Below are positions 27,601-54,275 of a DNA stretch of 64,000 bases, one piece after another. The stretch is taken from the NCBI RefSeq assembly GCF_964355755.1, contig NC_092670.1, positions 32,847,795-32,911,794 on the forward strand, written 5' to 3'. The translations under genes were made by a program, and so were the position numbers. This DNA comes from Antedon mediterranea. Its lineage: Eukaryota > Echinodermata > Crinoidea > Comatulida > Antedonidae. Each line of letters begins with the position of its first letter. The first letter of the stretch is position 1. The notes under the pieces were generated by a model, which saw nothing but the letters and a program-made list of their open reading frames with translations, ran no database searches and had not been told where the DNA came from.

Positions 27601-29272
27601 GACGTATTACATAACTTTAACAACAGTAAAATCCAGTACAATACAAATCCCTCACAAATAAAATACTGGTACCTTGGCTAAATTTCACGTTATTCATCAT
27701 GCTTAAAAACATTGTTCAAGCTAACGGGTGTGGCTATCTGTTATGGTGCTGGTTCAACAATAGAATACATAACATTGTTTGAAGGTTTGCATGGTGAAAT
27801 CAAATGTTGATATAAAGTTTGCGGTACACCACGTATATTAAGTCTGAAAAGAACTGTTGAGTTTCTCTTACATACATAACATTAACACTAAAAACCAGTA
27901 CAATACAAATCACTCACAAATAAAATACTGATAATTGAATTTTGCCGACCAGAAACGAGGGACATTGTGTGCCCTGCGCCATTTTGAACAAAAAGCAGAT
28001 AAAATAAAGTAAAAAGAGAAATAAAATTGAATAAAGTTCATTAATAAAATGTTTGCTGTTTTTTTTTAAATTTGTTTAGAACTAATAATAAGCTAAGGCA
28101 ATCTTCCTGAATACCTACTAGTAGGCCTACTGTATTATTCTTACACTACACTATTATAAATGAATTTGACAGATTTTACGTAAATTAGTGGTACTTTGTA
28201 ATCGTCATAATTAACTATGATAACCACCTCGGATTTTGATGAAATTTTCATGAATATCAGAAAACACTATATTGAATAAGTGTGCCAAATTTCAGAATGA
28301 TTGTTTATCTAGAAGGTAGTGTTGCTAAGGTGTTAATTGTTCAATCTGTAACAGCATGGGGCAACTTCCTGTCTGATTTGTCATTAAACTTTGACTGTTA
28401 ATTACTCAGTAATTACAAATAAATTGTAGTATAAATGCTATATACATTTATTGCCATAACTCTGGGAATATTTGCTTGATTTAAATGATCCAAACACCAT
28501 TTTGAAGGATATATTGTGAGGAATACCATTATAGTATCAACTAAAAAAATATATATTTCACCAAGTGCCTGGTTTTGATGTGGCTGTACACAAATGTATA
28601 TTACCTAAATTCCACGAGAGTTCTTAGAGCATTATAATTTATCTATTGCTTTTAATAATTAATTGTTAATAAATGCTAAATAATGTATTTGTTCCTGGTG
28701 TCCTCCTTATACTGGAGTTAAACTATTTATGAGACAATATTTTATTATGAATTATACGTAATATATATATGTACCGTAACCAGCAGGCAGGTTGATCTGT
28801 ATAGCATACGTCCATAGAAATTCATTTCTGATACTGTAGAATACTGCACTATTTCATAATAAGTTAATATCCTAGTTTAAAATACTGTTTTATACGTGTA
28901 TAACTTAATCAAAATAACGTTCTAATTTAGAATTACTGGGTCGGACAAACTAATCCACTTCATTGTTCCAATTATCTTATTTATTTATTGATATAATTTG
29001 TTCTTTTAAAAGGAAAAACACCATACAGTTGCACGGAATGTGGAGACGAGTTTGGTACATCATCGGCACGTGATCAACATCGCTCAAGTATGATGTGTTC
29101 AAAAGTTGGCCCTAGTCGAAAGTTACACACACTGGATGATTTACCGTCTGGACAGACACAGATCCATAAAATAGTAAACGCACTCACGGTACCAATGGTC
29201 TCGAAAAACGACTGTATGGACGCTATCGCTCAGAATTTCCCTCACACGTTTTTCCCTCAATCTGTCAATTAA
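21681..29272 (+). CDS. PRDM14: PRDM14-like PR/SET-domain zinc-finger protein (start uncertain)
   Basis: Eight exons join with matching phases: 21681-22018, 23298-23369, 23557-23717, 24137-24298, 24751-24862, 25093-25322, 25752-26049 and 29013-29272, all with GT/AG borders, giving about 543 residues without the N terminus. A pre-SET motif (FTREELDTSLYG, HALSGL) precedes the PR/SET domain (MWEIFVEG, HFIDGKG, ELLVWYGDSY). Then come zinc fingers: a C2HC (CNRCGKVF...KYTRC), five C2H2 (including SFEKRDRLRIHILHVH and FTASSILRTHIRQH) and a seventh C2HC in the last exon (CTECGDEF...MMC). The linker and finger sequences match vertebrate PRDM14 closely as I know it. In vertebrates it is a nuclear DNA-binding regulator of pluripotency and germ-cell fate; function here is inferred. 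The last intron (3 kb) carries a transposon-like element. The gene is convergent with lectin A. Confidence 0.92.
22235..22258. repeat. AAAT microsatellite
   Basis: Six units of AAAT (TAAATAAATAAATAAATAAA) in the first certain PRDM14 intron. Confidence 0.9.
22277..22305. promoter_or_regulatory. Perfect 13-bp palindrome with octamer-like half sites in PRDM14 intron
   Basis: AGGTTATATGCAT, three bases, then ATGCATATAACCT form a perfect inverted repeat. A single half (AGGTTATATGCAT) also occurs about 130 bases upstream, near 22147. ATGCAT-type half sites resemble paired POU-homeodomain sites, but the spacing differs from the known MORE element. A regulatory role is speculation; a cruciform or chance is possible. 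Confidence 0.3.
22795..23097 (+). mobile_element. tRNA-derived SINE
   Basis: The left part reads GGACTACTGATCGTGAGATC then a B-box-like TTTCGAATCC. The body follows (CATTGCTTGTACCCTTAGAC, TCTCTCCACCCAGGTGTATA) with a 3' tail of AAGCGCTATATATATCC and ATT repeats. This organisation (tRNA-like head, conserved body, short tail repeat) is that of tRNA SINEs. The A box is not clear, so the head may be truncated. It lies in a PRDM14 intron and is related to segments at 42.04 and 49.26 kb. Confidence 0.75.
26358..28591. mobile_element. 2.2-kb TIR element in the last PRDM14 intron
   Basis: The ends are a 30-bp inverted repeat with one mismatch: GTGTACAGCCACATCAAAAC at 26358 and its complement ending at 28591. 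The same four bases, AAAT, flank both sides (26354-26357 and 28592-28595), consistent with a target-site duplication. No transposase frame is visible, so it is a non-autonomous DNA transposon of unidentified superfamily. It contains a TAGGCCTA-rich stretch (27060-27260) and a 171-bp tandem duplication. Confidence 0.75.
27460..27780. repeat. Tandem duplication, 171-bp period
   Basis: CTGGTACCTTGGCTAAATTT and surrounding sequence occur at about 27495 and again at 27666, with a partial third copy near 27896-27930. Copies differ by small indels. The 73-residue frame at 27393 lies across it and is not protein-like. Confidence 0.85.
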
Positions 29273-29593
29273 AAACAGTGGTAATATTGGCTTATCATTG
29301 AATGCATTGGATTGAAATACGTAGAAAAAGGCCTCATTTATAAAAGTATTTACTAAGACTTACTTAATTGATTAACATAGGAACAGTTGTTTCATCGATA
29401 TTTATATGTGTTTAAAAATAGGCGTAGGCATATCAAATGAAGGCCTAGTCAGTCATGTAAATACAAGCAAGAAGAGTATATATCATTAACACCACTTTGC
29501 AGGCAGATTAGCAAGGTGAAATGAGGCTGAGTTGAGAGGTTACTGGTGTTGATATGTTATGGACACAAACCTTGTGTTTTTACGGTATTTCAA

Positions 29594-31846
29594 CTAGTTT
29601 AATACACGGACACAATATTTCATCTTGATTAGATTGTTGGTGACAGTCAATCTTTGGCACTTGGAACGCCGACTGATGATCGTCGTTGGTACTACAAATA
29701 ACAATGAATATTGGTAAAGGGCACGTCAATGGTAGCGATGGAGTATTGGCAAAGTGCGAGGCGTTCAAGGCAAGCGGGCATGCGAAGCGCGCCAAAAATG
29801 TGTGCCAGGTATCTAGTTTACAATGTAAAGAGTTAGAGTTTATCTTAACGTGCTTGTCCTACTATGCTACGATATTGTTTAAATAAATTATTTATATTTT
29901 CATAATATATCTAAATAGATATTGATGTTCCACACCAATGGTTATTAGAAGGTACTCCCGCATTATTGGTCTTAAATATAATCTTTATAATCTCAGGCCT
30001 TTTCTCATAAATTTTGCTATTATTATTATTATTAGTGATGAAGGAGTTTTCAATATTTTTATTTTGAAAAAATAATTTTGTTGAAAATTGTTTTCACCTG
30101 ACTCATGTTGATACTATTATCAAAAAAAGCAGTGTTAAGTTATTCAATTCAATTCAATTCAAGAAACATTTATTTATTTATGTAAATATTTATCTGCTGA
30201 GCCTATACCATGCGTATATAATTAATTATAATTAACTTACACTGTTCACATATAGTTGGCAGTTCCCTGGTACAGAACAAATCATGCCAAAAACCGCCAC
30301 GTCGATGATTTAAATTGGCACAGTCTTCATAATTTCCACTGGGTTCTTGGGGTGTGTCCCAATCTAAAAGACCACATCAAATATTAGGTATTTCTGTTTA
30401 GAATTAATTTAAAGTAATGTTAGTCACATATTTGGCTGCTATAAGTTGATGATACATTTGAGTTTTCGTAGGACTTTGGTGTTCTACATTCATTGCATAA
30501 TGTGTAAGTCTATTTGAAAGCCAAGATCGATTACTGTGATAAGATGGGTACGTTTTTACAACGTTTGTTATTATTCAATACTAGTTTTCCTTATTGCTTC
30601 TATTAAAAAAACACATATCCAAACTATACAAAGGGTAACAAAAAGGGGTGTCGATCGACTTCATATTTACAGCGTACACAATTGGTCTACATTTTTACAA
30701 AGGTATAGTTATACATCTGGAAACAAGAACACAATGACTTGAATCGGCGTTGAAATCAAAAACGTGACAATGCAAATGATTGCTGTCAATAAAAGAAACA
30801 CTGGCCCGTTGCGTGCATATTCTGTGGGCGGTCCACGCTCTGTCGGCAAGATACAGACTGATTCAAGTCTTTGTGTTCCTTTGTCCATGATTATACTTCT
30901 ATAGCTAGATCTTCTTCCCGACACCCATTCAAATTCGCCATCGCTATCTGCATCAACGAGGCCAATCCAAGCTCTGTCTATTCCCGAATATTCAAGTATT
31001 CTATCTAACCACTTGTTTTCTGCTTCACTGGTAACTTCAACTAAATCCCCATTGAAACTTTGGCATTTTTCTCTTCCGGAAGTCCACGTAGCAAGTGTTT
31101 CAATGATCCTGTAGCATTTATAAAAATCGACATTGTAATGCCATCCTTTTGGACAATCTGAAATTGAAATGAACTTCAAAATGAATTATTATTCTGGAAA
31201 GTGCACATGGTAGTCTAAACTTTTACAATATTAATTATACTCATATTTTACTAGTTCGGCTTCATTCAATGTGGGCAAACAATAAAAAATATGTCTTATT
31301 TTAATGTATAAGTACCATTATATTTTTCTTATTCGGCTCCACTAACGCCGGGGCGGCTTCAATATGAAAGGTAGGCTACGATTTTGTTAACTAGTAGTAT
31401 TAATTAACTTAAAAACACACAATTTAGTAAGAATTGCAGATCCAAAAATTGCAGATCCCAACAGTTTATCTAAAACAATAGGCTATTGTATACGACTTCC
31501 TGATGACTCACTTCTATTAAGCACTATGAGACAACTGTGTCACTTATGTTTTATATTTTACATGAAGAGTGCGGCCAGCTACATGCTGGTCGTACGAAAC
31601 AAATTTGTAGTGATTAAAACAATGAAGTAACCAAGTTTTCTGCTGTTATTTTATTTATTTATTTATGCTCTACCTTGGTATTGAGCACTCTATCTAAACG
31701 GTCTGAAAATTTCAACCTGAATATATATATATATATATAATTTTACTTCTCGTTTTGATTTAGCTTTTCGCTTTAATTTTGTATCTCCATTGAGATCCAG
31801 CCACTGATACCCACAGCATTGTCATTTTTCAGTAATTTGCCTTTGG

Positions 31847-31918
<72 letters not shown>

Positions 31919-31994
31919 TTTGCAACTCACCATCACAAATGACGTACTGTGTAGCAACCAAAATTGACAATAATATCCGTCCATTTGTTTTCAT
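29594..31994 (-). CDS. Secreted C-type lectin A (four exons)
   Basis: Exons in coding order are 31931-31994, 30897-31157, 30241-30363 and 29594-29691. All junctions are phase 1 with GT/AG borders, giving 181 residues. Exon 1 encodes a signal peptide (MKTNGRILLSILVATQYVIC). Exons 2-3 encode one C-type lectin domain: CPKGWHYN, the WTSGREKCQSFNGDLVEV helix region, AWIGLVDADSDGEFEW, then PQEPSGNYEDC, GFWHDLFC and PTICEQ. The EPS plus WHD residues lie where calcium and sugar are bound; EPS is close to the mannose-type EPN. Exon 4 adds a basic tail (SRRSKCQRL...KMKYC). It is probably a secreted pattern-recognition lectin. Exon 4 is only 321 bases past the PRDM14 stop, in convergent orientation. Confidence 0.9.
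31719..31738. repeat. AT microsatellite
   Basis: Ten AT units in lectin A intron 1. Confidence 0.85.
31740..31850. repeat. Repeat block shared by lectin A intron 1 and lectin D intron 3
   Basis: TTGAGATCCAGCCACTGATA with its flanks (CGTTTTGATTTAG before, CATTTTTCAGTAATTTGCC after) recurs at about 55195-55300. Positions within the two lectin genes differ, so this is a dispersed repeat or a rearranged piece rather than a conserved intronic element. Confidence 0.7.
31851..31914. repeat. AT microsatellite, about 30 units
   Basis: A long AT run ends only about 15 bases inside intron 1 of lectin A, next to the exon 1 donor. It accounts for tyrosine-isoleucine open frames on both strands, which are artefacts. 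Confidence 0.95.
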
Positions 31995-33786
31995 TTTTAA
32001 CAGAAAATTAAATATTACTTGGTTATCTTTAGCTCAGGCTATGGTATACGATATAACAACTGTTCGTTGTGTGAAGTATAAACAGGAATTCACAATAAAC
32101 ACACAGTGTAAACGCCTAGTGTTGATTGACTACTATTTTCTTGTTACTGGTAAACGCACTTTCCTTAAATTAAATTTTTTATCGTCTACACGTCAAAGAA
32201 GCAACACTTATTGCGTCGACAAGAAATACTACACTCCAAGATAAGTAGGTTATCTTTAAAATATTCTGTAGTGAAATAATAATTAATTAACGTTTCTATA
32301 CGTAATTAGAAATGCCAATATCAAAACAATTAAATATAATTGTTCACCAACTTTTGACGCAAGAACTTACACTTACTTGTTATTGTTTACTAAAATTAAA
32401 ATTTAATGAACATTGTATATTTATATCATATTTGTCCTCCAAGCTTTTCAAGTTACGTCTATAGTAAACGGACGCAATGATGAGTGAATGAACGAAAATA
32501 ATTATTAGCATTTTGATTATAGATACGCGGACAGCTATCAAGCGAATAAATAGAAAATTTAAAAAGAAAACAATATTTGATCTGCATTACCTATCTTAAC
32601 ACGTAACTAATTGATTAATAAAACAGTAAACAAGATACAGACGTATCTATGCAGATTTATCTGTAATCTGTAACTTTTATTTTTATTGTTTTTAATGATA
32701 CCCTGCATGTTTGTTGTTCTGTTTTGTTTTTGTAGTTATATATATTCTACAGTTTATGCATATTATGTATTGTCATACAGATCTAATTAAGTAATTAGTT
32801 TTTTTACATTTTGTTTTGATGTTATGTATTAGTATTTTGAACTTTGTGACTTATGTTATTTTTAATTTTGTCTGTAAATTCGACCATTAACACCATTAGC
32901 ACCATTAACTGATAGATGTGTGCCATCGATATAAAGGTGATTCCTATGAATAAATACATAAATAAATAAATAAATAAATACTTACCCCAGAACGAATATA
33001 ACATTCTTTCTGATTTGAAATCAATCATTATATTCCACCGTCCAAGTTACAAACAAACGTTTAATGTTATCGATTAAGTTTCAGTCGTTTCCCAACTGAA
33101 ACTATGGCTTTAATTAGAAATTTATTAAAAACATTGCACAATGAAAATTACTGTTATTGATTTGTCGATCTTTTCCCTGATTATTTAGTCATATACTAAA
33201 CCAATATAACCTAATATTTTAATACAAAACAATTTGATACAGAAGATTAATATCAAAAGTTTGTAGTATAGAGCTATAAACACAGGGATAGTGATTTTGG
33301 TCATGGATTTGAGACACACCTAAAGAAACGTCAAAACAAGATGGTTTAATTATAAAGAAAATAATGTAAGTGATAATAAAACAATATAAACAAACTCAAA
33401 GAACATTTTGGAAATCAGAAATGTAATTACTGTATAATGTAAGGAAAAGTTAAGTTGTAACTAAGGAAACGATAATACTCTAAACTTTTTCCTTATGTCC
33501 CCTTTTTGCTTCTCAAGGATATAGGCGCTGCTCACTCAAAAACATGTATGTTTGTCGAATTCTTTCAATTATGTCAGTTCATCCTTAAAAATGTTGATAT
33601 GATCTCATTATGAGAATAATTCTATTATTATGTTTTTGCGACAAATATTTGAAACACAAATGGTTTAAATTCTGGTAGTATGTTTAAAAATTGCACATTT
33701 ACCATCGGGACAAGCTCATTAATTTAATTAATGAAATGTTCTACTTTTTTTTGAATTACTTATGTTAAACAAATTGACGATTCTTC
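31995..33786. other. 5' flank of lectin A and spacer
   Basis: No gene is visible. The 140 bases before the lectin A start show partial similarity to the 5' flanks of lectins C and D (a pyrimidine-rich CTTTTGCTGA/GTATAC region), and 32389-32430 resembles 58500-58540 upstream of D. An AAAT microsatellite lies at 32951-32980. The remainder is AT-rich without recognised features. Confidence 0.4.
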
Positions 33787-34115
33787 TTTGTTCCAAATTA
33801 TTGTATTCATTTGTGTATTTCATCTGTTTTTTTAAAAAGGACAAACACCGTGTAGTGTCACAAAATCTAGTGAGTAGTGGGTTTGGTATCATCGGTAACT
33901 GATCAGCATCGATCTAATATCAGTGTTCAAAAGTTTGCGCTAGTAGAAAGGTGGACACACTGAATGCTTTACCCTCTGGACACTGAGACACACATATTCA
34001 TACAATTGTAATTGACGATGGACTAAGACTTTTCCACGCACGGACGTTTTCCCTCAATCTGCCAGTTAAACAGTGCTGATATTGGCTCACCAATGAATGC
34101 ATAAGATATTAGTTG
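33787..34115 (+). pseudogene. Decayed copy of the last PRDM14 exon (relic 1)
   Basis: It aligns along its length with 28960-29300: a similar acceptor region (TTTAAAAAGGACAAACACC), then GTTTGGTATCATCGG, GATCAGCATCG, GTGTTCAAAAGTTTGC, TTTACCCTCTGGACA and TTTTCCCTCAATCTGCCAGT. Several indels and stops destroy the frame and the zinc-finger cysteines. No other PRDM14 exon is copied, so it came from a segmental duplication starting in the last intron. No intact lectin exon follows. Confidence 0.8.
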
Positions 34116-35200
34116 CAATATTATTGTAAATTAATAATATTGCATCTAATGAAAAGGTCAAAATAGGCTTCAATAAAGAGCTATGCATTTACTAGGAATT
34201 TACCTGAATATTAGATTTTTGTTAAAATAATAATACAATTATTAAGTTACTGCGACCATGATTTTAAACAACAAAATATCTTTAATCCATTCAATTTCGG
34301 ACTCTTTCAATATATAGCTCTGTGCTCTCCATGCATGCTCTACGCGTGCGCGTTTAGTTTGTATAACAACGATTCTCTATAGTAATACATTGCTTTTTTG
34401 TTTAATGTTTGCAGGAACTTTATAATTTCGTTATTAACTTAACAAAAATCTTAAAACAAATTGATTGTTTTTATATGAAATTCGATATTTAAAGTCTTGT
34501 GAACATTATAAATTTTTAATTGCAAAGGACTTGGCTCCATACTCTACATAGGCATAGTTGGACACACATATGGCCGGTGTGCACCCCACTTGACTTTCTA
34601 AAATCCGTCAACGCAATGCCGTAACTCTTTCAATATATGGTTATGGGTGTAAACAATACCAAAGCCTTGTAGTTTGGCCTTTCTTTTATACAGTCCAGTG
34701 TTCTAGCATACGTTGATAGTACTTATAGACTGGATTTTGGCCTATCATTCATACACACGGTATCGTTATGCAAACAAAACCGATGTAGACCATTTTAAGA
34801 AAGGGTTTGTGCATTACCCAGTCTCGTCTACATGTCACCACCAGAAGCTCACAACACTGAATAAAACAATTAGTGCGTAAAATTGGTTTTTGGTGTAAAA
34901 GGTACCAACATCAAACTTCGGAGTTTTCAGGTCTCTAATATATAGCGGGTCTGTAAACAACCAGTTAACAACGGAGCAACTAACACTCATTCATTCCAGG
35001 CAATGGTGCCTGCTTTTATTTTATCTGTAGGCCACGGGCCCATAGATTCAAAATATATTACAGTAAGGTTGACTCTCTCTATTTTAACAATACAAATAAA
35101 TACTTTGATAGAATAACATAAGCATTTAAATCTGTTAGTAACTTATGTAATTTTGGATAAGAGGGATTACGTCAATAATTAGGAATCAGTAAAGTTTCCC
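34116..35200. other. Spacer of the degenerate lectin unit
   Basis: By position this is where lectin exons 4, 3 and 2 would lie after relic 1. I see no CTLD-coding remnant. The stretch 34990-35060 (GCCACGGGCCCATAGATTC) looks like a piece of an unidentified dispersed repeat. Confidence 0.35.
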
Positions 35201-40618: not shown

Positions 40619-40650
40619 GGAACACTAGGCCTAGCCCCTACACCCTGCTT

Positions 40651-41690
40651 CCAGGACTCTATGCTCCTCTGTATGGATACTGTAGGCTTCACATGGGTCC
40701 AGTTGACTTACCCCGACTTAGCAAACACGCTTCCAGAATATCGAAAAATATATCCTTTTTGATACAAATTTCTTGGTACTAGTACTTATTATCAATTAAT
40801 ATATCATATCATCCACTTTGAAGAACAATTTAAATCCCGGTTTCAAAGATTTTAGCAGATTTAATTCATGAGGTTCAGAGCAAAATAAAACTACATGTTG
40901 CATTATCGAATAGCGCCACCGCTATAATGTGATGAGGTCCTTATCAACGAAATGCAATTAATACATGCATTGTCTTATTAAAGGTAGTTTTGTTAAATTA
41001 CCTTATTTGCTGTATACACGTCACAGAAGCTGAAATGTGTAACAATAAACACTTAAACACAATATTGTTAATTTCCTGTTGAAATTGTTTTTTATTTTTG
41101 TTATATATGATTTGTATATGAATGTACTATCCGAAATAAAGGAAATTAATGAATGATTAAGTATTCTAACAATGACTTTTGTATAGTGGAATATGAACTT
41201 AATAAAGGTTTCTTTAAAGCATTAGAAATATCAAATTACACAACTGTACTCTACCTATATCGATTTCATTTTTATTAGGCATAATCTACCAAGAACTTAC
41301 AAAAATTAAAACTTAGACGTAAACTTTAGACGTGAGAAATTTTTATTTTATGTTTTTGCAATATTATTATTTAGCATTTTTTGACTTTTTTGATATCATA
41401 CACTCATACATGTGTACTCTCTACTACAATGAAATGAACTGAAAGCATACTCTACTAGAGTAAATAATGTCGTAATTGCAGTATAATAATTTTGAAATGA
41501 ATTGAACAATCCTTATATGTAATACTTTGAATTTAAAATGTTGATTTCTACCCTTCTCAGTTATTACATGTTTAATTACTTGGCGGTTGCAATAAGCGGT
41601 CACTTTGATTACTGCTTAAACAAACTACTTTTCATTTCTTTGTTAACTGTATCTTATCTTTAAAATGTAACTATTTTTTCGTTTGTTATG
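40651..41690. other. LINE 5' boundary region and spacer
   Basis: The first 100-150 bases may still be LINE leader. The rest is AT-rich with no recognised gene, SINE or lectin remnant. Confidence 0.35.
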
Positions 41691-41694
41691 ATTA

Positions 41695-41880
41695 CATTTT
41701 CATCTCATTTGCACAATATCACGCTTTTATATACAGTGTTCAAAAGTTGTCGCTAAAAAGGTACACACTGGATGGTTTACCGTCTCAGGTTAAATACCCA
41801 CACACGCATATAATTGGGAACGTTATGAAAAACGAATTCAATTCAGTCAACTAGAATGTTTCGATGAATAAATTATGTTG
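41695..41880 (+). pseudogene. Decayed copy of the last PRDM14 exon (relic 2)
   Basis: GTGTTCAAAAGTTGTCGCTA, GTACACACTGGATGGTTTAC and CGTCT align with the same order in 29090-29150, and AACGTTATGAAAAACG matches the later GGTCTCGAAAAACG. Frameshifts and gaps abolish coding. Located just before the last exon of lectin B, as expected if tail and lectin were duplicated together. Confidence 0.75.
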
Positions 41881-42140: not shown

Positions 42141-43255
42141 GCCTAACATTCTAACATTAACAAACATATGCAGATGTTTGAAACATGCATCATGATACTT
42201 GACATCATTGGAGCTATTTTATGGCACAATATTTCATCTTGATACGATTGTTGGTGGAACTTAATCTTTTACACTTAGAACGCCGCCTGATGATGATTCT
42301 TGGTACTGTAATATACAAAGAAAAACAATTTGCATGATAAAAAAAAAGGATTAAAAGCTCGTCATTAGCATATAAAATATACCGGATCCAACAGTTGGGA
42401 TTCTTTGTCTAAATGTGTTAGATGATGGATGTGTGTGAGTGTTTCTGCATCTTATGTGAGGCCTATAGAAAGTAAACAACCATACCTATATTGAAGCTCA
42501 ACAAAAGGTAAGACTATGCACAGACTACATAATTGGTATGTTTATTATTTAGGATGAAATGAAAAAATGCGCTAGGTTGTGTAGTACTTTGATGTCATTG
42601 ACTGTGCCAGAGTGCTAGACTGTTATTATTGTATTAATATTAACTGTTTTGTATGTATTGTGGTAAGAAGATTTTTATTTTTTATTATGCGAGATATACA
42701 ATAATAATATTATAGTAATAATAGAAATTAGTCTGTAATTGAAAGGAGTATTCCTAGAATTAGAAACGTTAGAAAATTTACCGGCGTTTTCTGCCTGTGC
42801 ACGCTGCAGTTGTTGTTGCTCCCTTATCGTTAGTGCAGCGCTCGCACGGGTAATTTATAGCGTGTTTTTATTTGAAGGTATTTGAGGTATTTTTGTGTGA
42901 CCGCCGGGAACATTTAATTTTTAGATTTGTCGCAGTCAATCATAAGATCAAAGGACTGTTACAAATTCCTATCCTGGCAAGGCAGGCTTAACATCCTGCT
43001 ATAGATTACCTTGATTGAGCCTATAGATGAAATGTATAACACTAACTGTGACTTACACTGTTCACAGATTGCTTGGAAAGTCCAGAGGGCACATGGAACT
43101 TTGCGCCAAAAACCACCAACTGTATGATCTAGAATTGTACACTCCATCGTTTCAAGGAAACTGTACCAATCTAAAAGATCATACTATAAATTTAGCCAAT
43201 TTATTCCTTAAATTTAATGTTAGCATATACAAATTCTTTTTAATAACAACACATT

Positions 43256-43390
43256 ATTTGTTCCAGGGTAATCAGAACTGACCCAATCTAAAAGGTCATA
43301 CTATAATTTTAGGCATTTTTCTTACAATTTAATGTTAGCATATAGACAAATTCTATTTATTAACACAAATATTTTGCAATGTTAAGCAAT
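43256..43390 (-). pseudogene. Duplicated 5' piece of lectin B exon 3 with its acceptor
   Basis: About 117 bases upstream (in gene sense) of exon 3 the same acceptor and exon start recur: CTTTTAG then ATTGGGTCAGTTCTGAT. The flanking CATACTATAA and TTAATGTTAGCATATA are repeated too. This second start resembles lectin C exon 3 (ATTGGTACAGTTCTGATG) more than B's own does, and it runs out before the WRK region. Confidence 0.7.
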
Positions 43391-44465
43391 TCAAACGGGG
43401 CGCCGTTTACCGTATTTAAAAGCCAACAATATTATTTCTGGTAGTGGATCAATTCCTCTCGGATAAGGAATATAAACCGTAAGAACAGTGTACACAGTTT
43501 GCCCGTGTGTACTTTCAAGAACCAATTTCATTATTTGACACGAGATAGGGAGATACCACGGTGAACTGATTCACACAATTGCCCTTTTCAAGGATTACCA
43601 CCTATCTGATGATTAAGTGATTCATTTAAAATAATAATAATACATTTATAGTAATAATTCTTCCTAAATGTGGTCTTAAAAATAAAGATAATAAAATATA
43701 TATACTAACAGACTCAAAGGTGCTGTTCTGTTTAGTGTATGTAAATACGAATAAGCTTCGAAAGATGTAAATATACATTTAATGGGTAAATATTATTATT
43801 CTGAGTAGAACAATATGTATAGGGGTTGAAAATAATAATATAAATCATTTTAAAGAGGAGAAAGAAAACAATCCTGTAATTATATTATGATATTATTATA
43901 GTTACTAGTAGTTAACCACCAAATAGAGATTGAGAAGAAAAAAAAACATGTTAACTGCTATAAGTTTGGTAAGTTAAAAACTTAAAAAAAACATTTTTAC
44001 AGGACCTGTTTTCGGATTGTGACTCATTACAAGGTGTGTGTAGGCCCTTTGATTGTGATTTATTATATTCGATCATTTACAAATGTATTAAATCATACTT
44101 GTATAGCTAGATTTGCTCCCAGACAGTCATTCAAAGTCATCACTATCCAAATCAACGTAGCCTATCCAAGTTCTTTGTAGGATTGGGTCGGAATATTCAC
44201 TAAGTTGGTCATCTAACCAATTGTTTTCGTTTTCCCTCAAAATTTCAACTAACTTGCCATTGAAACTTTGGCATTCTTCTCTAACGGAAGTCCACGTAGC
44301 TGTCGCACTGGTGAATAAGTAGCATTTAGAAAATGTAGCATTGTAGCGCCATCCAATAGGACATTCTAAGAATGAAATAAACTTTTTTGATTCGGATTTG
44401 GATAATGTGAACAGTACGTCTAAACTTGTTAGATCGTCGTAGTAGTGATGGGATTTGGCAATGTT

Positions 44466-44975
44466 GTAATGATATTCAGTGAGTAATGATGACATTCGGT
44501 AAACTAGTGATGCCATTCAGTCAGGTAGTGATGACATTAATCAAGTAGTGATGACATCCAGTAAAATATTGATGACATGCAGTCAAGTGGTGATGACATT
44601 CAGTAAAGTAGTTAAGACATTCAGTCAAGTAGTGATGGCAATGAGTAAAGTAGTGACGACATCCAGTAAAGTAGTGACGAGATTAAGTGAAGTAGTGATG
44701 ACATTCAGTAAAGGGTGATGACATTCTATACTGTAGTGATGACATTCAGTAAAGTAGTGACGACATCCAGTGAAGTAGTAACGAGATTAAGTGAAGTATT
44801 GATGACATTCAGTAAATTAGTAAAGACATCCAGTAAAATGGTGATGGCATTCAGTAAAGTAGTTAAGACATTCAGTCAAGTAGTGATGGCAATGAGTAAA
44901 ATAGTGAAGGAATTCAGTAAAGGGTGATGACATTCAATACTGTAGTGATGGCAATGAGTAAAGTAGTGACGAAAT
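44466..44975. repeat. Minisatellite, about 20-bp unit, part 1
   Basis: Degenerate repeats of AGTAGTGATGACATTCAGTA and the variant AGTAGTGACGACATCCAGTA, often followed by AAG. It is in intron 1 of lectin B. Frames such as 44715-44927 and the end of the 129-residue frame on the minus strand are artefacts of it. Confidence 0.95.
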
Positions 44976-44984
44976 TCACAAAAT

Positions 44985-45297
44985 TGATTGAAATATATAT
45001 TTATACTGGGTAACCTCTTCAGTCAAAGACTGGTCTCCCAGAGGGCCCAGTTGGTGATCAGTGGCTGTGATGTACTAATACACCGGGGTAACCCCCTACT
45101 CGTCTCGAAAGATGTACTAGGTTCTTTAAAGTGCACACGAGCAAGTTGTGTACACTGGACCTACGGTTTATAGTCCTTATCCGAGAAGACTCGTTCTACC
45201 ACCAGAACCATGAAGTGAGTGAGCCTCGAACCCATGCCGATGTTATGGCTACGTGATTACGGTTCCACTGTCTTAACCGCTCGGCCACTCACCCACA
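44985..45297 (-). mobile_element. tRNA-derived SINE inserted in the minisatellite
   Basis: On the minus strand the head reads GGTGAGTGGCCGAGCGGTTA, with an A box TGGCCGAGCGG. About 60 bases later comes a B box GGGTTCGAGGC, a class II tRNA (Leu/Ser-like) promoter arrangement. The body follows (CTCGGATAAGGACTATAAAC, GGGGGTTACCCCGGTG) and it ends at about 44990. The minisatellite resumes on both sides, so the insertion is younger than the array. It is not a functional tRNA gene: the folded arms are not complete. Confidence 0.8.
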
Positions 45298-45765
45298 GAC
45301 ATTCAGTTAAGTAGTGATGTCATTAGGTAAAGTAGTGACGACATCCAGTAAAGGGTGATGACATTCAATACCGTAGTAATGAAATTCAGTGATATAGTGA
45401 CGATATCCAGTAAAGTGGTGATGACATTTAGTAAAGTAGTTAAGACATTCAGTCAAGTAGTGATGTCATTAGGTAAAGTAGTGACGACATCCAGTAAAGG
45501 ATAATGACATTCAATACTGTAGTGATGATGACATTCAGTAAGTAGTGACGACATCCAGAAAAGTAGTGACGAGATTAAGTGGAGTAGTGATGACATTCAG
45601 TAAATTTAATATCGACGGAATTAGGTAAAGAGTGATTACGTTCAGTAAAGAGTGATGACATTTAGTAAAGAGTGATGGCATTCAGTAAGAGTGATTCTAT
45701 TTAATAATGTAGTGATGACATTCAGTAAAGAGTGATGATATTCATTAAAGTAGTGATGACATACA
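45298..45765. repeat. Minisatellite, about 20-bp unit, part 2
   Basis: Continuation of the array at 44466-44975 beyond the SINE, with shorter AGTAAAGAGTGATGACATT variants toward its end. Confidence 0.95.
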
Positions 45766-46309
45766 ATTTCTGGATACTACTACTATAGGCGTTTTGAGTG
45801 TACGACAGAAGACCAAACATTTCATCATGTATATAACCCAAATCTCGTTTGGTTCCAAGTGAATTGAGGCTCTCCCATAATGTATTGTTAACTGCATTGT
45901 ATAAGCAACCTTCAATGTATTGTATAACAAAATATGTTGTTGTTGATATCCACTTATAATACCCAAAGCATTTTGGCGTATGTTATGGGTAGTGGTGAGT
46001 AACAGATGGAGTGATCATTATGTGAAATGTTCATGTACGAAATATGCAAATGGAATATCGATGGATAATTGAAGTAAAGGGCAAGCTTTATTTTTTCTCG
46101 ATAGATACTTCATACGATCGTCGCTAATAACAAAGTCATTTCTAATGTAATAAGTATATTATTCTTTACTGCATATAACACAATATTACACTATTGCCAT
46201 CGAAAAGTGAATTGGATAGAATGGATTTTTATTTAAACTTCACAAAAGACGTCGTAGGCCTACGTGAACTCACCGTTTGTTGCGTCGCCCTTTTTAGTCG
46301 CGTGGAAGC

Positions 46310-46400
46310 GACTCTATAGTTCACTATGTCGGTCGGTTGGTCGGTCTGTCTCCCTGTCTGTCTGTCTGTCTGTCGGCCTGTCTGTCGGTCCGGTATCACT
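46310..46400. repeat. TCGG/TCTG repeat with conserved flanks, copy 1
   Basis: TAGTTCACTATGTCGGTCGG leads into GTCTGTCTGTCTG repeats and ends CCGGTATCACTATGC. The same flanks surround the copy at 46975-47050, so this is a dispersed element rather than two chance microsatellites. Confidence 0.85.
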
Positions 46401-46974
46401 ATGCGTTTTATCGCTTTATGACCTTATCTTGATATCAGTTTAATCTAGCTAAGTCAATTTTTCACAGAATATTCCTTATGGCCAGGAATCGATGTGGTTA
46501 TGTTTTCACGGTGCGCAATAAAAAATTACGCGGTCTACGCACGATTGAACGAAATCACGTTTGTAATCATATCTTAACAACCACGAATCACAATTAAATA
46601 AAATTTGGTACTAATAAATTTCAGGGCATAAATCATCATATGGCAATACAATTACGTGCGTAGCGCATGTAACGCATGCGTACGCGCTCCTTAAAATTTT
46701 CAAAATTTATTTTCGATGAAATAAGAGTACATTTCAGGCAATTTTAAGCGTTTACAAAATTGCCATGAGTGCGCATATTTTTGCGTGCGCACTGCGCGTT
46801 AAATGTTATTGCGCATTCTTTTTGCCCGATTGATGTTTTCTTGACTTACTTTTCAACTCGAAATTACGTTATACGAGCACGTCGAAAGTGACAGGCTACG
46901 CACGTGTAAATTAAAAAAATATAAATGTTTTAAAACATTTCAACATTTTTAAACATGTTCAGTAATTTCGGTCA

Positions 46975-47052
46975 GTATAGTTCACTATGTCGGTCGGTCG
47001 GTCTGTCTGTCTGTCGGTCTGTCTGTCGGTCTGTCTGTCCGGTATCACTATG
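46975..47052. repeat. TCGG/TCTG repeat with conserved flanks, copy 2
   Basis: Same left and right flanks as copy 1 (TAGTTCACTATGTCGG, CCGGTATCACTATGC). A degenerate copy in the opposite sense lies at 48875-48915 (GACCGACCGACCAACCG...GACATAGTG). Confidence 0.85.
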
Positions 47053-47389
47053 CATTGTAGCACGCGACTTAATGGCTGTTGGCCTTGTTAATAATGGTCG
47101 CACTTTGTAATAAAAGTTGTCGGTAATACATAGTGCGACAATTATTACAAAGTGCGACGCAACAACCGTTGCATATTGGAAAAATGATGGCACATTCTTG
47201 ATAGTCATAAAACGTATTAAATTTAGTTACACTAATCTACGATAATAAATGCAATAAACAGCAAACGTTCGGATAGATGTTGGGCTCCCAACATAACATT
47301 TAAAAACCATTATTTTAAAACTTACCATCACAAATGACGTAATGTGTAACAACCAACATTAACAGTAATATACGTCCTCTGGGTCTCAT

Positions 47390-48945
47390 TTTTACAACTA
47401 CACTAATTTAGAAATATCAAAATGACGACAATAACACTGTTATTCAATGGAAATATAATTATACTTAATAAAATTAAAAATACTATACCATATTGTTTAT
47501 TAATATAATTTTTGTGAACCTGATTCTTTTAAAGTTACAATATCCACATCATAGCAACTCATGTTGTTCTATTAATTTAATTAGTAAGAATATGATTGCA
47601 ACAGAAGAACTGATAACACAATTACTATTATACCATTTATAATTTACTAACTTAATTAGTGTTTCTGTTTCAACAATAATTTAATGTAGTCTAAGACACA
47701 CACTCACAAGTAAAATGACGACAAGACATCCAATAGGAGGACTTTTCTCCAATCATTTTGTTTAAAACCCGTAATATTCAGAAAATATCTCAGAATGTTT
47801 TTTTTTTAATGTAGGCTACTCAATATATTATATGCTACTTAAATTTGGTTTTTTATTATTTTGACTTGTTGGCGTTGACCCGGCATTTCAAACTAAAAGA
47901 TTGGTTCCCACTAGCGATGCAAACCTAAATAAATCTACGCAACGAAAGAAAATGCCCTTCCGATACGTGTGTTCTCCCCCGTCTGCGTGAAATCAACCCT
48001 GCGATGTTTTCAGCACTGATGCGTCGTCGTTTCCCACTTGTGATTGCACAATACAGCACTTTGCGTCAATACGTCGTAGCGTTGCGTTACGTTGCATCTC
48101 TAGTGGGAACAACGCTTTGAGAATGAGGAATCTTCAGTAATGTTCATAAGTAGGCCTATGTGATGTCATATCGTGGATGTACATGAATAAGGATGAATAT
48201 AATTATGTCTAATTAGCTTTAATTAAGTACGTTCTTAAATTAATTTAGCGCAGGAATATTAAATCTATTCACCACTCTACAGTTGAACATTACAAATCAT
48301 TTCTGGGTCTCATAGATTATATAATCAACACACCTCAAACCTGTTGTGTGTATGTAAATTTGGTGTAATGGTTATGCTACCACTCTTCAACTAACAATGG
48401 TTTCAGTTGACTAACAATAGAACAGCAACGCCAAAATCAAACGGGTGATTTTGAAAAGAAATAGGTTTTTTTTTTAAAATAATCGTATCAACAAACATGT
48501 ACATTGAATGAAATTATGTTTTAAACTTACAAATTATAACTCTTTCTTCTGAAAAATGAAGTTTTTTTGGACAAGTAGTTCTCGAGAGAATGCAATTTCA
48601 GTTAACTTGTTACTTCGCCAGCTTTTGAAAATATTATCCTATCTTTTAACACTAGCCGGTATGAAAATAAAATCCTTTTTAATCGCTTCGGCTTGCAGAA
48701 GGTACAAAAGATACCAATTGCTCTTGATAGTGGTAAGCGTTTGTAATGGAGAAATCCGCTTACGAGAGGCTAAATTATATTTATTATATCAACTATCATG
48801 ATGCGTCCTTATGTAACTCTACTAAAAAATAAGGCCATATACATGGCTGCAGTCGCGTGCTCAAGTTAGTGTTTACTGACCGACCGACCAACCGATCAAC
48901 CAACTGACCGACATAGTGAGGTGTAGAGTAAAAATCATATTTATT
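47390..48945. other. Spacer between lectin B and unit C
   Basis: No gene is supported; the 81-residue frame at 48556 is not protein-like. It contains the MITE at 47904 and an inverted TCGG-type repeat at 48875. Confidence 0.5.
47904..48110. mobile_element. MITE, about 207 bp
   Basis: The left end GTTCCCACTAGCGATGCAA is mirrored at the right end by TTGCATCTCTAGTGGGAAC. The interior is GC-richer (TGCGTCAATACGTCGTAGCG) and noncoding. This is a non-autonomous DNA transposon; the superfamily is not assigned because the target duplication is unclear. Confidence 0.7.
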
Positions 48946-48947
48946 CG

Positions 48948-49110
48948 TTTGTTATGATGACATTTTCACCTCATCGGCACAAGATCATCATCGATTGAAT
49001 ATACAGTGTTTAAAAGTTGACGCACAAAATTGAGAACGCCCTTGCGCTGCTAATGGTCTCGAAAACGAATTCAATTCAGTCAAATAGAATGTTTCGATGA
49101 ATACATTATG
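48948..49110 (+). pseudogene. Decayed copy of the last PRDM14 exon (relic 3)
   Basis: CTCATCGGCACAAGATCATC, CAGTGTTTAAAAGTTG and CTAATGGTCTCGAAAACG align with 29045-29210. It is closest to relic 2, including the following AATTCAATTCAGTCAA, in line with B and C being sister units. No frame survives. Confidence 0.78.
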
Positions 49111-49412: not shown

Positions 49413-49503
49413 GGCCTAAAATAATCTAACATTAACAAAAATATGCAGATGTAAATAACTTGAGAGTTTGAAACATGCATCATGATACTTGACGGCATTT
49501 GAG

Positions 49504-52481
49504 CTAGTTTATGGCACTGATATAATATTTCATCTTGATACGATTGTTGGTGGAACTTAATTTTTTACACTTAGAACGCCGCCTGATGATGGTCCTTGGT
49601 ACTGTAAATTACAAAGAATAACAATTTGCATGATAAAAAAAAAAGAATTCAAAGCACATCATTAGCATATCAAATATACCGGGTCCAATAGTTGAAGGGA
49701 TTCTTTGTCTGTGTAAGCATAATGTGTTAGAGGATAGACGTGTGTGCGTGTTTCTGTACCGTATGCGAGGCCTATAGAAAGTAAATAACAATACGTAAAT
49801 TTAAAAGAAAAAACTGAACAAAAGGTAGGACTGTGCATAGACTACAAAATTGGTATGTTTATTATTTAGGATAACATGAAAAAATGCGCTAGGTTGTGTA
49901 GTACTTTGATGTCATTGACTGTGCCAGGGTGCTAGACTGTTATTATTGTATTAATATTAACTGTTTTGTATTGTGATAGATAGAAGGAGATTTTAGTGTT
50001 ATGCGAGATATATAATACAAATTTGAGATAGAAAAATTTGTTTGTAATTGAAAAGAGTATTCGTAGAATAGAATTAGAAATTCACCGGCGTTTTCTGCCA
50101 GTGCACGCTGCAGTTGTTGTTGCTCCCTTATCGTTAGTGCAGAGCCAGCACGCGTAATTCATATGCGTATCTTGATTTACAAGCCATTTTTGTATGAAGT
50201 CACGGACGTCATAAGATCAAAGATCACTGTAAACAAATCATAGCTTGACAAGACAAGCTCAGCATTATGTTGTTAGATTACCTTGATCTGAGCCTATAGA
50301 TGAAATGTATCACATGCATTAACAATAATAACACTAAATGTGACTTACACTGTTCACAGATTGCTTGAAAAGTCCAGGTGGCACATGGAACCTTGCGCCA
50401 AAAACCGCCAACTGTATGGTCTAGAGTTGTGCACTCCTTCGTTCCATGGCCATGGACATCAGAACTGTACCAATCTAAAAGGTCATACTATAATTTTAGG
50501 CAAATTATTCCATAATATTAATGTTAGCACAAATTCTATTTAATAACACAAATATTTTGATGTTACACAATGCAAATGTCCAAGCGATTCAGAACAGAGC
50601 GCCGTTTACCGTACCTAAAAGCCAAAAATATTATTGGCTTAGGTTCGAGGCCGACTCGCTTCTATTTCTGTATTGGAAAAATTTTTTTCGGATAAGGAAT
50701 ATAAACCGTAAGAACAGTTTACACAGTTTGCCCGTGTGTACTTTCACGAACCAATTTCATTATTTGAGACGAGATAGGGAGATACCACGGTGAACGGATT
50801 CACACAATTGCCCTTTTTAAGGGGATTAACACCTATCTGATAAGTGATTAATTTAAAATAATAATAATTTTATAATAATAATTCTTCCTAAATGTGGTCT
50901 TAAAAAATGTAAACAATACATGTAAATAGATATAATTATACTTAATAAACAGAACAACCTCTTTGAGTTGTTTAAATATAATTTTTATAATTCAAAACAA
51001 TGGTTTCTGTCTTAGTAATATTAATCTTCAGGCCAAATTCATTAAAAACTATAGTTTATGTAGTATGGTAACCATTCTGAGGAGTTCTGCTGTTTAGTAC
51101 CAGATCAGCTGCGTATCCTCCATGTACATTATTAAAGATTCACACTGATGATGGAAAGCGCTTCCCGATACGTATGTATGTAATGCGCCTTGAGCACTAT
51201 TGAATGGTATGTGCACTATAAAAATCCTGTTATTATTATTATTATTATTATTGTTGATAACCGTCGTTGAAATAAAAGATGAGATTGAAACTACTCAAAC
51301 GAGTTGTTCTGTTAAGTGTATTTCAATACTTCTCACTTATAGAAGCTTTGGAAGATGATAATATACAATAGTGGGTAAGTAGTATTATTCTGAGTAAAAC
51401 AATATTTACAGGGGTTGAAAATATAAATAATTTTAAAGAGGAGACAGAAAACAAACCTGTAATTATTGTTTATGAAACACTGAATGAATAAAGTTACTTG
51501 TAGTTATACATTAAATAGAGAGAGAGAGAAAAACAACAAAAACTTTTAACTGCTATAAGTTAATAAATTTGAGTTTTTACAGGTGGACCTGTTTTCGAAT
51601 TGTGAATCATTACAAGGTGTGTGTATGCCCTTTCTCAATCTCAGATATTTCCTCATCTTTCTCGTTTCTAGTTTAAATCAAGTTTGGTATGGCTATTTTT
51701 AGACTAAGTATTTATATTTGATCATTTACAAATGTATTAAATCATACTTGTATAGGTAGATTTGCTCCCCGACAGCCATTCAAATTCATCATCACTATCC
51801 GAATCAACGTAGCCAATCCAAGCTCTTTGTAGGACTCGGTTGGAATATTCACTAAGTTGGTCATCTAACCATTTGTTTTCGTCTTCGCTCAAAATTTCAA
51901 CTAACTTGCCATTGAAACTTTGGCATTCTTCTCTAACGGAAGTCCACGTAGCTATCGCATTGGTGAATAAGTAGCATTTAGAAAATGCAGCATTGTAACT
52001 CCATCCAATAGGACATTCTAAGAATGAAATCAACTTAAAAATGACCTTTATTTTTATTTTTATTCTGATTTGAATATTGTGAACAGTCTTTTATTGTATG
52101 TCCCACTGTGTTTTTTTTCTTAATTCGGCTTCAATAATACTAAGTCAAAGAGCCCTTCACAAAGTAAAGGATGAAGCTTTGATTCTAGTAGTATTGAGTG
52201 TTACATCTCCCTGGTAGTCACCTCAGTTTTAATTTTGTGGATGCCATATTTGGCTGCTGTGTATTAATTTGTCAATGATTTTTAAATATATCTCACAGCC
52301 CGCCATGTTGGTGCTGATAAACTCAATACCTTTTTCTATTGATGAGGTACTATCAATTCTGTATTACATTTTTCTTGTATTCCATTATGTAACAATTATA
52401 TAAAATTTAAATCTCACCTTCACAAATGACGTAATGTGTAGAAATCAAAATTGACAGTAATATACGTCCTTTTGTTTCCAT
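49504..52481 (-). CDS. Secreted C-type lectin C (four exons)
   Basis: Exons in coding order are 52418-52481, 51748-52017, 50349-50474 and 49504-49601, phase 1 throughout, giving 185 residues. The signal peptide is METKGRILLSILISTHYVIC. The CTLD has CPIGWSYNAAFSKCYLF, WTSVREECQSFNGKLVEI, AWIGYVDSDSDDEFEWLSG, then SSDVHGHGTKECTTL, GGFWRKVPC and AICEQ. Neither EPN nor QPD is present, and the WND-type triplet is WRK, so classical calcium-dependent sugar binding is unlikely. The basic tail is LPRTIIRRRSKCKKL. It is the closest relative of B; intron 2 carries a later LINE fragment and (TTA)n tail absent from B. Confidence 0.9.
50990..51260. mobile_element. LINE fragments and (TTA)n tail in lectin C intron 2
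   Basis: On the minus strand about 51125-50995 reads like a decayed reverse-transcriptase motif (GGYAADLVLNSRTPQ, then FNEFGLKINITKT). Next to it on the plus strand is a LINE/SINE-type 3' end (GGAAAGCGCTTCCCGA, GCGCCTTGAGCAC, CTATAAAAATCC) with TTA repeats to 51253. The corresponding place in lectin B lacks it. Confidence 0.6.
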
Positions 52482-54190
52482 TTTTACATACATCTTTAAT
52501 CTGTAAACACACCATGAAGAAAAGTCATGGGTTAAAAATGAAAATCATATTTGAAAGTAGTAACTTATGCTGCAGCTTAAACTTGGTGGAAATAAAAATA
52601 AATATACAGAAAACCTTTAGACTTGATACTTCTTTTGCTGAAGATTATGGGGGTATACTACGATGTATAAACTGTTCGTTCTGAACTAAAGGCGTGCAAT
52701 AAAAACATGAACGATAGATATTAATAAACGCATACAGCGTTGATTGACGTACGACAATATAATAGTTTCGTTAAAAACGAACGACGCATTCATTCTTATA
52801 ATTTCTCGTCACAGCATTATATAACATTATCAATTTTTACTCTAACAACACTTACAATTAAGTACGCTAGATATAAATTCATAACAAATTAACACTTTCA
52901 ATAAGTAGACTAACACAGAACTACCTGTATAGTATCTAGTGAAAAACTTAATTAATGCTACTATAAATAGAAATTCCAAATGCCAATCATACATTATACT
53001 CCTCTTAGATCAATTTTATTTGTTTGTCGGTGTCAAACATAATATCATTGCTACTACCAGGTTCCATATACGTTAACGTTTATTCGCAACAATTAGGAAC
53101 ACTACCAATTAATTGTTAAGTGAAATTGAAAAGTAGTAAATATGTTATTATTAGAACAGGTACGTTTGTAAAGTAAAGACATTCAGTCAAGTAGTAATGG
53201 CATTAAGTGAAGTAGTGACGACATCCTGTAAAGGGTGATGACATTCAATACTGTAGTGATGCCATTGAGTAAAGTAGTGACGCATCCAGTAAACTAGTGA
53301 CGAGATTAAGCAAGTGTGATGACATTCAGTAAATTTAATAACGATGAAATTAAGTAAAGAGTGATTACGTACGTTCAGTAAACTGTGATGACATTTAGTA
53401 AAAAGTGATGACATTCAGAAAGAGTAATTTCATTCAAAAATGTAGTGATGACACTCGGTAAAGGGTGATGATATTCAAAAAAGTAGTAGTGATGATAGTC
53501 CGCATTGTTTAAGCAACCTTTAATGTATTGTTTCAGTGGCCTAATACGTATACAAAATTTTACTTTAAATTGTTTTAATACGTATTAAGTATAGTATTTT
53601 TTACTGCGTATAACACATTCTTACACTATTGTATACGCGTGTAAATTATCAAAATATTATGCTACTTTTGAATGTATACTTATTAATCATGTTAAACAAT
53701 GACTGTATGCTTTGCTTGAATCTCAAAGACGTTGATGCATCATCCTTTTCGTCATTTCTTTTAATGAGTAAAAGAAAGGCTTCGGTTACATAGGACGTTG
53801 TGATAAATGTCCCCTTCATCGATACGTGGTCAACATCGTGTTGGTGGTATTGTTAGACAGCTGCAAAAAGTTACAAAAACAGGAAGCTGTTCTCTACAGT
53901 CATTTTATTGTAATACCCAGCTGAAACAATTGCATTATAGTTAAACTCAAAGTTAAGTTTTTATAGTAAAGTTTGCTTATATTGGTTAGGTTTTACAGAA
54001 TTCAATACAAAATAAATGTTGCGTTGATGACCCACTTTTTTCATTATGTTTCGCTAACAAAGTGTCTCTCACAAACTAGAGCGAATTCAGTATGTTTATT
54101 TTTAAAATTGTAATTCGCGGGGGAATCAGAGCTATGCAGTAATTTACTAAAAAAAATGTGTCTATTTTAACATTTTATATTTATTTGAGA
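52482..54190. other. 5' flank of lectin C and spacer to unit D
   Basis: No gene is supported. About 52600-52680 resembles the 5' flanks of lectins A and D (CTTCTTTTGCTGA, TATACTACGAT) and may hold the promoter. It contains the minisatellite at 53172-53497. Confidence 0.4.
53172..53497. repeat. Minisatellite, second locus
   Basis: Same AGTAGTGACGACATCC / GTGATGACATTCAGTAA units as in lectin B intron 1, but here upstream of lectin C. Either it was carried by duplication and displaced, or it amplified twice. Confidence 0.9.
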
Positions 54191-54194
54191 AAAA

Positions 54195-54275
54195 AATACC
54201 AACTGTATGAACGCTCATGCACGTTTTTCTTCAATCTGTTGAGATATAAACAGGAATGATATTGGTTTATGAAAC
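54195..54275 (+). pseudogene. Decayed copy of the last PRDM14 exon (relic 4)
   Basis: Only the 3' part is left: AACTGTATGAACGCTCATGC, CACGTTTTTCTTCAATCTGT and ATGATATTGGTTTATGA align with 29208-29300. It lies about 520 bases before the last exon of lectin D. Confidence 0.65.

Follow-up and report, generated by a model that had tools for sequence, protein, structure and literature searches.

Why do pieces of the last PRDM14 exon recur between lectin genes in Antedon mediterranea, and what was the unit that was copied? All positions below refer to the window, i.e. the whole stretch of 64,000 nucleotides that was analysed (contig NC_092670.1, positions 32,847,795-32,911,794, forward strand). Its plus-strand gene is assigned to PRDM14 from sequence, having a SET domain closest to PRDM14 among the PRDM proteins followed by C2H2 fingers: the SET-domain exons, joined by hand at approximate joins, have the PRDM14 structure 5ecj as their best match (E 3.9e-42), and these same approximate joins match PRDM12 more weakly (E 2.2e-24). 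The best-fitting donor for the terminal exon lies at 26050, in the preceding exon; with the acceptor at 29013 it gives an in-frame join that completes the zinc-finger linker HTG-KTPYSC. The terminal exon (the tail) encodes a degenerate finger (zf-H2C2_2, E 2.2e-5, below its cut-off) and, used as a protein query, is found at a single place in the genome. PRDM14 and lectin A converge there, with about 320 bp (0.32 kb) between their stop codons:

29013..29272, plus strand: PRDM14 terminal exon, from which the relics derive, with its acceptor at 29013 and its stop codon at 29270-29272
29594..31999, minus strand: lectin A, convergent with PRDM14, exon model (last exon 29692-29597 plus stop; CRD exon 2 30364-30242; CRD exon 1 31158-30898; signal exon 31994-31929)

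The initial annotation had described this arrangement and proposed four decayed copies of the terminal exon on the plus strand. We find all four, at 33.8, 41.7, 49.0 and 53.8-54.3 kb:

33783..34167, plus strand: relic X, from pairwise alignment to the tail
41705..41822, plus strand: relic B, from pairwise alignment to the tail
48956..49066, plus strand: relic C, from a profile of relics B, C and C' (weak pairwise)
53782-53892 and 54192-54309, plus strand: relic D, in two pieces separated by about 300 bp, from a profile of relics D and D'

Pairwise alignment scores were judged against 100 shuffles and 200 AT-rich control queries from elsewhere in the window. By this measure the homology to 29013-29272 is clear for relic X (score 267; maximum 46 in shuffles, 70 in controls) and relic B (score 81; maximum 48 and 78, respectively, with 0/200 controls reaching 81). 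Relic C (48968-49019) scores 56 against a shuffle maximum of 41, and is insecure by this comparison since 5 of the 200 controls reach the same value; relic D (54192-54309) is not significant at 59, the shuffle maximum being 54, 30/200 controls reaching 59, and the tail in reverse complement scoring 53 on this stretch. Relic D', introduced below, also scores 59, as do or exceed 20 of 200 controls. As relics C, D and D' are not significant pairwise against AT-rich controls, their identification rests on profiles, by which C and D are firm: the B/C/C' profile recovers the PRDM14 tail at E 9.8e-23, and the D/D' profile recovers it at E 3.1e-5 and, in a colinear match, at E 0.0017, together with relic X (E 7.6e-5), the reversed and 15 block-shuffled controls of the D/D' profile giving nothing below E 0.25. 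Where alignable, the relics share 76-80% of their bases with the tail, on which ground the idea of very young copies was rejected. In five of the six relics, X included, none of the three plus-strand frames is free of stops; short relic B has one stop-free frame.

The homology of relic X starts at 28958 and so takes in no fewer than 55 bp of the last PRDM14 intron, as well as part of the 3' flank; given this intron sequence, what was copied was DNA and not mRNA. A common left breakpoint inside the last intron had been expected. A breakpoint there is seen for X only; in B, C and D the visible homology begins within the exon, and intron and flank profiles had no match to the PRDM14 intron beyond X.

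Relics B, C and D sit, as first reported, directly before the last exon of a minus-strand lectin, at 0.40-0.48 kb from its last coding base:

42226..47389, minus strand: lectin B, whose CRD exon 1 (44366-44103) has an in-frame TGA, making it a probable pseudogene
49507..52481, minus strand: lectin C, exon model
54792..57981, minus strand: lectin D, exon model
41007..41271, plus strand: probable remnant of the 5' flank of the unit X lectin, just left of relic B, from a flank profile

By their match to Lectin_C (PF00059) the duplicated genes are classed as C-type (immune-type) lectins: in the three scanned (A, C and D) CRD exon 1 lies above the cut-off; CRD exon 2 of lectin A falls 0.1 bit under it, and CRD exon 2 of lectin C, scanned alone, gave no match at 0.001. 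A stretch that is open in both B (near 42.7 kb) and C (near 50.1 kb) was left out of the lectin exon models, as the reading frame does without it. Behind relic X a lectin exon was searched for and none was found. The stretch 41007-41271 is recognized by a five-sequence flank profile at E 1.3e-5 (E 1.1e-4 for 41158-41271 with the signal exon omitted), and by single lectin flanks at only E 0.015 and 0.47. The 5' flanks of lectins A, C and D are themselves homologous, the C-profile matching A at E 1.4e-5 and the D-flank profile matching C at E 5.2e-5 and A at E 0.0015. Another candidate remnant of the unit X lectin, 35222-36343, which matches the first intron of lectin D and locus L001, was rejected as a dispersed repeat (3257 candidates in a first look through the genome; at least 89 matches from the 40 scored).

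The same contig carries two further relics, C' and D', at a distance of about 350 kb (C1:33.22-33.23 Mb). Relic C' precedes a minus-strand C-type lectin (both in locus L001), with the last coding base again within 0.40-0.48 kb; a lectin exon was searched for in unit D' and none was found. Positions 1-2484 of locus L019 align to 52371-54533 of the window (86-88% in the larger pieces, 73% in one) and hold the same order of C signal exon, D relic and 3' flank of the D relic. In the distal block C is thus again followed by D, each with its relic. Throughout, the strand is constant: plus for 6/6 relics, minus for lectins A, B, C, D and C', all five of which have exons parted by introns.

In an unrooted tree of 21 paralogues, a branch with support 96/96 sets the lectins that have a tail or relic (A, B, C, D and C') apart from the others; the branch is present in 98% of 200 bootstrap trees, and 0/500 label shuffles came as low. 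Within this group B, C and C' fall together, their lectin bodies being some 76-80% alike, as do A and D. The observed placement of the relics, the intron in X, the grouping of the lectins and the repeated C-D order together argue, with a probability of roughly 0.9, that the amplified unit was the PRDM14 tail plus its convergent lectin, copied by tandem duplication of DNA, after which the tail decayed. This bears out the unit that had been proposed from the window, as well as the suggestion that the relics serve as internal markers: they mark the unit starts.

Other origins of the relics have to account for the same observations. The region is rich in repeats, 35222-36343 being one close by, and the relics might be copies of a dispersed repeat that happens to lie in the last PRDM14 exon. 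Genome searches, however, matched only the PRDM14 locus and the distal block, all on contig C1 and all on the plus strand, with the tail (3 places), relic C' (6 matches in 5 places) and relic D (2 matches) as queries. Weak matches can escape such searches, the tail query alone having missed B, C, D and D'; at the sensitivity of the searches made, this extremely improbable origin is refuted, and the ground for rejection that the initial annotation had named here does not hold. Processed copies of PRDM14 mRNA would explain why no exon but the last is represented, a pattern typical of 5'-truncated retrocopies, but relic X retains 55 bp of intron, relics B, C, D and C' share one relation to a lectin, and the distal block shows the order a second time, so that we give retroposition next to no weight. 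The direction of copying is not fixed by an outgroup, the lectin tree being unrooted, and noncoding DNA of an older lectin unit could conceivably have become the last exon of PRDM14. Against this very improbable course stand the possible 26050/29013 splice, which would complete the linker HTGKTPYSC in frame as expected for an original part of the finger array, and the degenerate finger that the exon encodes.

It is a more serious question whether the whole 370-kb minus-strand lectin array arose from units of tail and lectin, with the older relics decayed past recognition. The 19 family matches listed between 32.876 and 33.245 Mb are all on the minus strand, like lectin A, and even in the relic-bearing group the relics are near the limit of detection; yet no relic was found in the DNA examined at the 16 other lectin loci (last exon located in 5 of them), and the tree sets the relic-bearing lectins apart from the rest. 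At these 16 loci the best match to the relic queries had E 2.7e-4 and the others E 0.007-0.71, and all were set aside as chance or simple repeat, the best ones coming from bases 48900-48929 of the C query, a repeat outside the relic. A five-sequence relic profile gave E 0.84 to 9.8 at L003, L011, L013, L015 and L017 (likewise set aside), and pairwise scores were 33-52, with a mean of 46 and a maximum of 73 in 100 controls at one locus. Either most of the array was free of the tail at its origin, or the relics in it have aged beyond recognition or lie too distant to be seen; a tail-bearing origin of the entire array seems unlikely to us.

One part of the initial annotation is not supported as stated, namely that selection kept the lectin and not the tail. 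The CRD frame is intact in only 4/7 units (A, X, B, C, D, C' and D'), no lectin exon having been found in X or D' and B having its TGA, and across the two CRD exons dN/dS comes to 0.41-0.71 in 10 pairwise comparisons. In ungapped base identity, the coding part of relic X holds up against the tail (176/221) no worse than CRD exon 1 does between lectins (230/276 for A-D, 214/277 for A-C); the contrast of tail and lectin lies in indels and stops.

The tail may have been not neutral at first, if the 3' untranslated region of lectin A ran antisense through the PRDM14 terminal exon; a working lectin copy would then have had to include the tail, and transcripts from lectin copies could be antisense to PRDM14. 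We consider this doubtful. The first canonical minus-strand AATAAA/ATTAAA below the last coding base of lectin A occur at 28984 and 28980, some 29 bp past the PRDM14 exon; measured from the left edge of the X copy, they lie about 25 bp inward. In the alignment, the signal is not kept at the corresponding place in relic X, which counts against the antisense reading. The distance to the nearest such signal is 194 bases for B, 297 for C', 567 for C, 612 for D and 613 for A. AT-rich DNA has many of them: at 32% G+C an AATAAA should turn up, by our estimate, roughly every 600 bases, which makes any argument from these signals weak.

Returning to the duplicated unit of tail and lectin, its history may be pictured as follows. 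A tandem duplication, by unequal exchange or another such process, would have begun in or beside the last PRDM14 intron and taken in the complete lectin together with its 5' flank. The copied tail, cut off from the PRDM14 promoter and upstream exons, would have decayed, and of the lectins behind copied tails some would have been kept and some lost. Later rounds would have copied one or two whole units, a C-then-D block now lying at 33.22-33.23 Mb as C' and D'. A single founding event and an expansion outward from the PRDM14 edge are presumed here. Being independent of the lectin sequences, the relics mark start, strand and order of the units, so that the duplication history becomes readable without genes perhaps shaped by selection or exchange. 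The array also illustrates a plain rule, that a closely convergent gene can carry its neighbour's tail along when duplicated.

In the human red-green opsin array, truncated TEX28 copies are partial copies of a flanking gene riding with the tandem genes, and the lectin array resembles it in having flanking-gene fragments within a tandem array. In invertebrates, C-type lectins and further immune gene families have likewise expanded with tandem duplication, and the portion of that literature surveyed makes no mention of flanking-gene fragments as unit markers; a literature search joining PRDM14, lectin and tandem duplication found nothing. The closest known case is the human RCCX module (STK19-C4-CYP21-TNX), where, according to the available text of PMC8362596, whole genes are tandemly duplicated with the truncated TNXA and STK19B, and TNX runs in the opposite direction to CYP21, whose 3' end it overlaps. 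Convergent geometry and non-functional pieces of neighbouring genes in a tandem unit are thus common to both. A complete gene with a truncated flanking piece is found in units C, D and C'; strand and order are as constant as described above; and copying at the DNA level is seen in the X intron and the intron-bearing lectins. As far as that text goes, RCCX differs in carrying truncated pieces of two genes, against one neighbour in the lectin array, and in a copy number that varies among people; judged by their divergence (roughly 75-88% alike), the copies in the lectin array are older, and some of them lie about 350 kb away. The general interest is modest because this type of event, a duplication that carries a truncated neighbour gene, is already known, and the array of PRDM14 tails and lectins is a clear new example of it.

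The gene on the plus strand of the window (C1:32847795-32911794, G+C 31.7%) is PRDM14, whose SET exons, joined by hand, match structure 5ecj (PRDM14) at E 3.9e-42, with PRDM12 as runner-up at 2.2e-24. Its terminal exon (the tail) can also be spliced from an alternative donor at 26038. Alone, it matches no Pfam family at 0.001; when the last part of the exon before it is added, zf-H2C2_2 matches at 2.2e-5, under the family cut-off.

Features discussed in the text (window positions unless marked C1, the contig NC_092670.1)
25065-25382 and 25752-26072, plus strand: PRDM14 zinc-finger frames, downstream of the SET exons
29013-29272, plus strand: PRDM14 terminal exon; in-frame splice possible from donor 26050, completing the finger linker HTGKTPYSC
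29.6-32.0 kb, minus strand: C-type lectin A (signal exon, two CRD exons, short basic last exon)
35222-36343: dispersed repeat (3257 candidates, 40 scored)
36564-40624, minus strand: LINE-like element whose long open frames encode an endonuclease and a reverse transcriptase (the latter at 36564-39380), with another frame upstream
41007-41271, left of relic B: probable remnant of a lectin 5' flank
42.2-47.4 kb, minus strand: C-type lectin B, same four-exon make-up
49.5-52.5 kb, minus strand: C-type lectin C, same four-exon make-up
54.8-58.0 kb, minus strand: C-type lectin D, same four-exon make-up
C1:33225842 (L001), relic plus, lectin minus: relic C', then C-type lectin C'; locus found by tail search

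The core of the initial annotation, that the tail was copied together with a convergent lectin, is borne out by the decayed copies (relics): X is clear, B stands in pairwise comparison, and C and D stand by profiles. Relic X (33.8 kb) is unambiguously a copy of the PRDM14 tail. Chance likeness was gauged with 200 control queries from elsewhere in the window: none reached the score of relic B against the tail (81; control maximum 78), five reached that of C and 30 that of D, so that C and D are unsafe on pairwise scores alone; on D the reverse complement of the tail scored 53 vs 59 for the tail. Both are nevertheless safe because profiles of their own paralogues match the real tail and X. The real tail is matched at E 9.8e-23 by the B/C/C' profile, and X at 2.6e-14. 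For the profile of D and its distal counterpart D' the values are 3.1e-5 and, colinear, 0.0017 for the tail and 7.6e-5 for X, and the 442 kb searched contain no other match at E <=1. When the D profile was reversed there were no matches, and 15 block-shuffled versions of it yielded two (E 0.25 and 0.53). Stops interrupt all three plus-strand frames across X, C, D, C' and D'. Over the 118 bases of relic B one plus-strand frame is free of stops, which is taken as chance in a short piece since the start of the exon is missing and no PRDM14 exons lie before it. An 81-codon stop-to-stop frame (41609-41854) spans relic B, and part of it resembles the tail; this too is put down to chance.

From relic to last coding base of the lectin the distance is 0.40 kb (B), 0.44 (C), 0.48 (D) and 0.43 (C'), the PRDM14 and lectin A stop codons being 0.32 kb apart; from signal exon to next relic it is 1.8 kb (A to X), 1.6 (B to C), 1.3 (C to D) and 2.1 (D-type to C'). 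The 5' flanks of lectins A, C and D are homologous, and the probable flank remnant left of relic B is matched at E 1.3e-5 by the flank profile and at E 0.015 and 0.47 by single flanks. Unit X would formerly have been complete and have since lost its lectin, whose place is now occupied by the LINE-like element and the dispersed repeat. The latter has one copy in the first intron of lectin D and several in the distal block. A short element (22805-22916) is present again in B, C and C', where it lies between the relic and its lectin; it is probably a shared insertion marking this sub-group. Homology to X begins at 28958, inside the last PRDM14 intron, that to D at 29025 and that of the B/C/C' profile at 29057; when searched for with the tail exon, relics other than X start between 29025 and 29081. 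One founding breakpoint for all units would fit these edges. For the final 600 bases of this intron, the only match besides themselves is a short one at 26353-26400. Elsewhere in the window, an inverted pair of 211 bases (58917-59127 and 62349-62558) is 97% alike, and a 216-base sequence stands in two perfect tandem copies (9047-9478), which may be either very recent or an assembly trait.

In the genome (354 Mb, 18 contigs) the tail as query matched at C1:33225842, and relics C' and D as genome queries found no additional places. Right of C', positions 1-2484 of locus L019 repeat window 52371-54533 (two larger pieces 86-88%, a third 73%), comprising the signal exon of C with its 5' flank, then relic D with the 3' flank of D; therefore the unit order C, D is kept in the distal block. 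On the left lies a D-type signal exon with 5' flank (L001 2240-3568, 85% alike). No CRD exon belonging to it turned up in L018 or on this side of L001, and no lectin exon of D' in L019.

CRD exon 1 of lectins A, C and D passed the PF00059 cut-off in a scan of these three, and that of A has at least 120 genome matches at E <=0.001 (223 candidates, 150 scored). Among the matches listed, 19 lie within C1:32.876-33.245 Mb, all on the minus strand, and one at C1:34.75 Mb, also minus. Four related lectins among those listed stand on the plus strand at C1:31.77-31.82 Mb, about 1 Mb left of PRDM14; the DNA fetched around three of them shows no relic. Beyond lectins A, B, C, D and C', sixteen loci (L002-L017) were taken with ~5.8-7.1 kb 3' of CRD exon 1, leaving out the matches at 31781780, 33099984 and 33207121 (the last without 3' flank). 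None of the 16 has a relic beyond chance level in the DNA fetched; five of them (L002, L003, L005, L015, L017) gave a match, at whatever level, to the last exon of the lectin, so the relic position may lie outside the fetched DNA in the other 11, and the DNA of L014 stops just beyond CRD exon 2. The signal exon and 5' flank of L002 (6757-7261) are 81% alike to those of lectin B, and its CRD places outside the relic-bearing group on a long branch; L002 is possibly a mosaic.

An unrooted tree of 21 lectins, with B translated with X at its stop, sets A, B, C, D and C' on one side of a branch (support 96/96), with A and D (94/82) and the trio B, C and C' (98/97) as sub-groups. Away from CRD exon 1 and the DNA around it, lectins B, C and C' are ~76-80% alike; the 5' flank of C' and relic D' come closer, at 86-88%, to C and D. 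CRD exon 1 of B (44063-44384) and C (51712-52036) is 93% alike and low in synonymous change, adjoining unit DNA being 74-79% alike, which may reflect either constraint or exchange. In lectin B this exon has a tryptophan codon changed to TGA and lacks one codon next to it. The further proposal of the initial annotation, that selection kept the lectins, is not upheld. Across the two CRD exons, pairwise dN/dS ranges over 0.41-0.71 in 10 pairs, and for CRD exon 1 alone over 0.38 to 1.13; both ranges are rough, with 49-51 and 70-74 synonymous sites. Because these values are rough and pairs containing the broken B are no different from the others, we make no claim of selection; the CRD frame is intact in only four of seven units.

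Duplication of tail plus lectin is a clear example of a type of event already known. The best comparison is the human RCCX module: according to PMC8362596, TNXA is a truncated copy of a gene that itself lies opposite to CYP21 and overlaps the CYP21 3' end.
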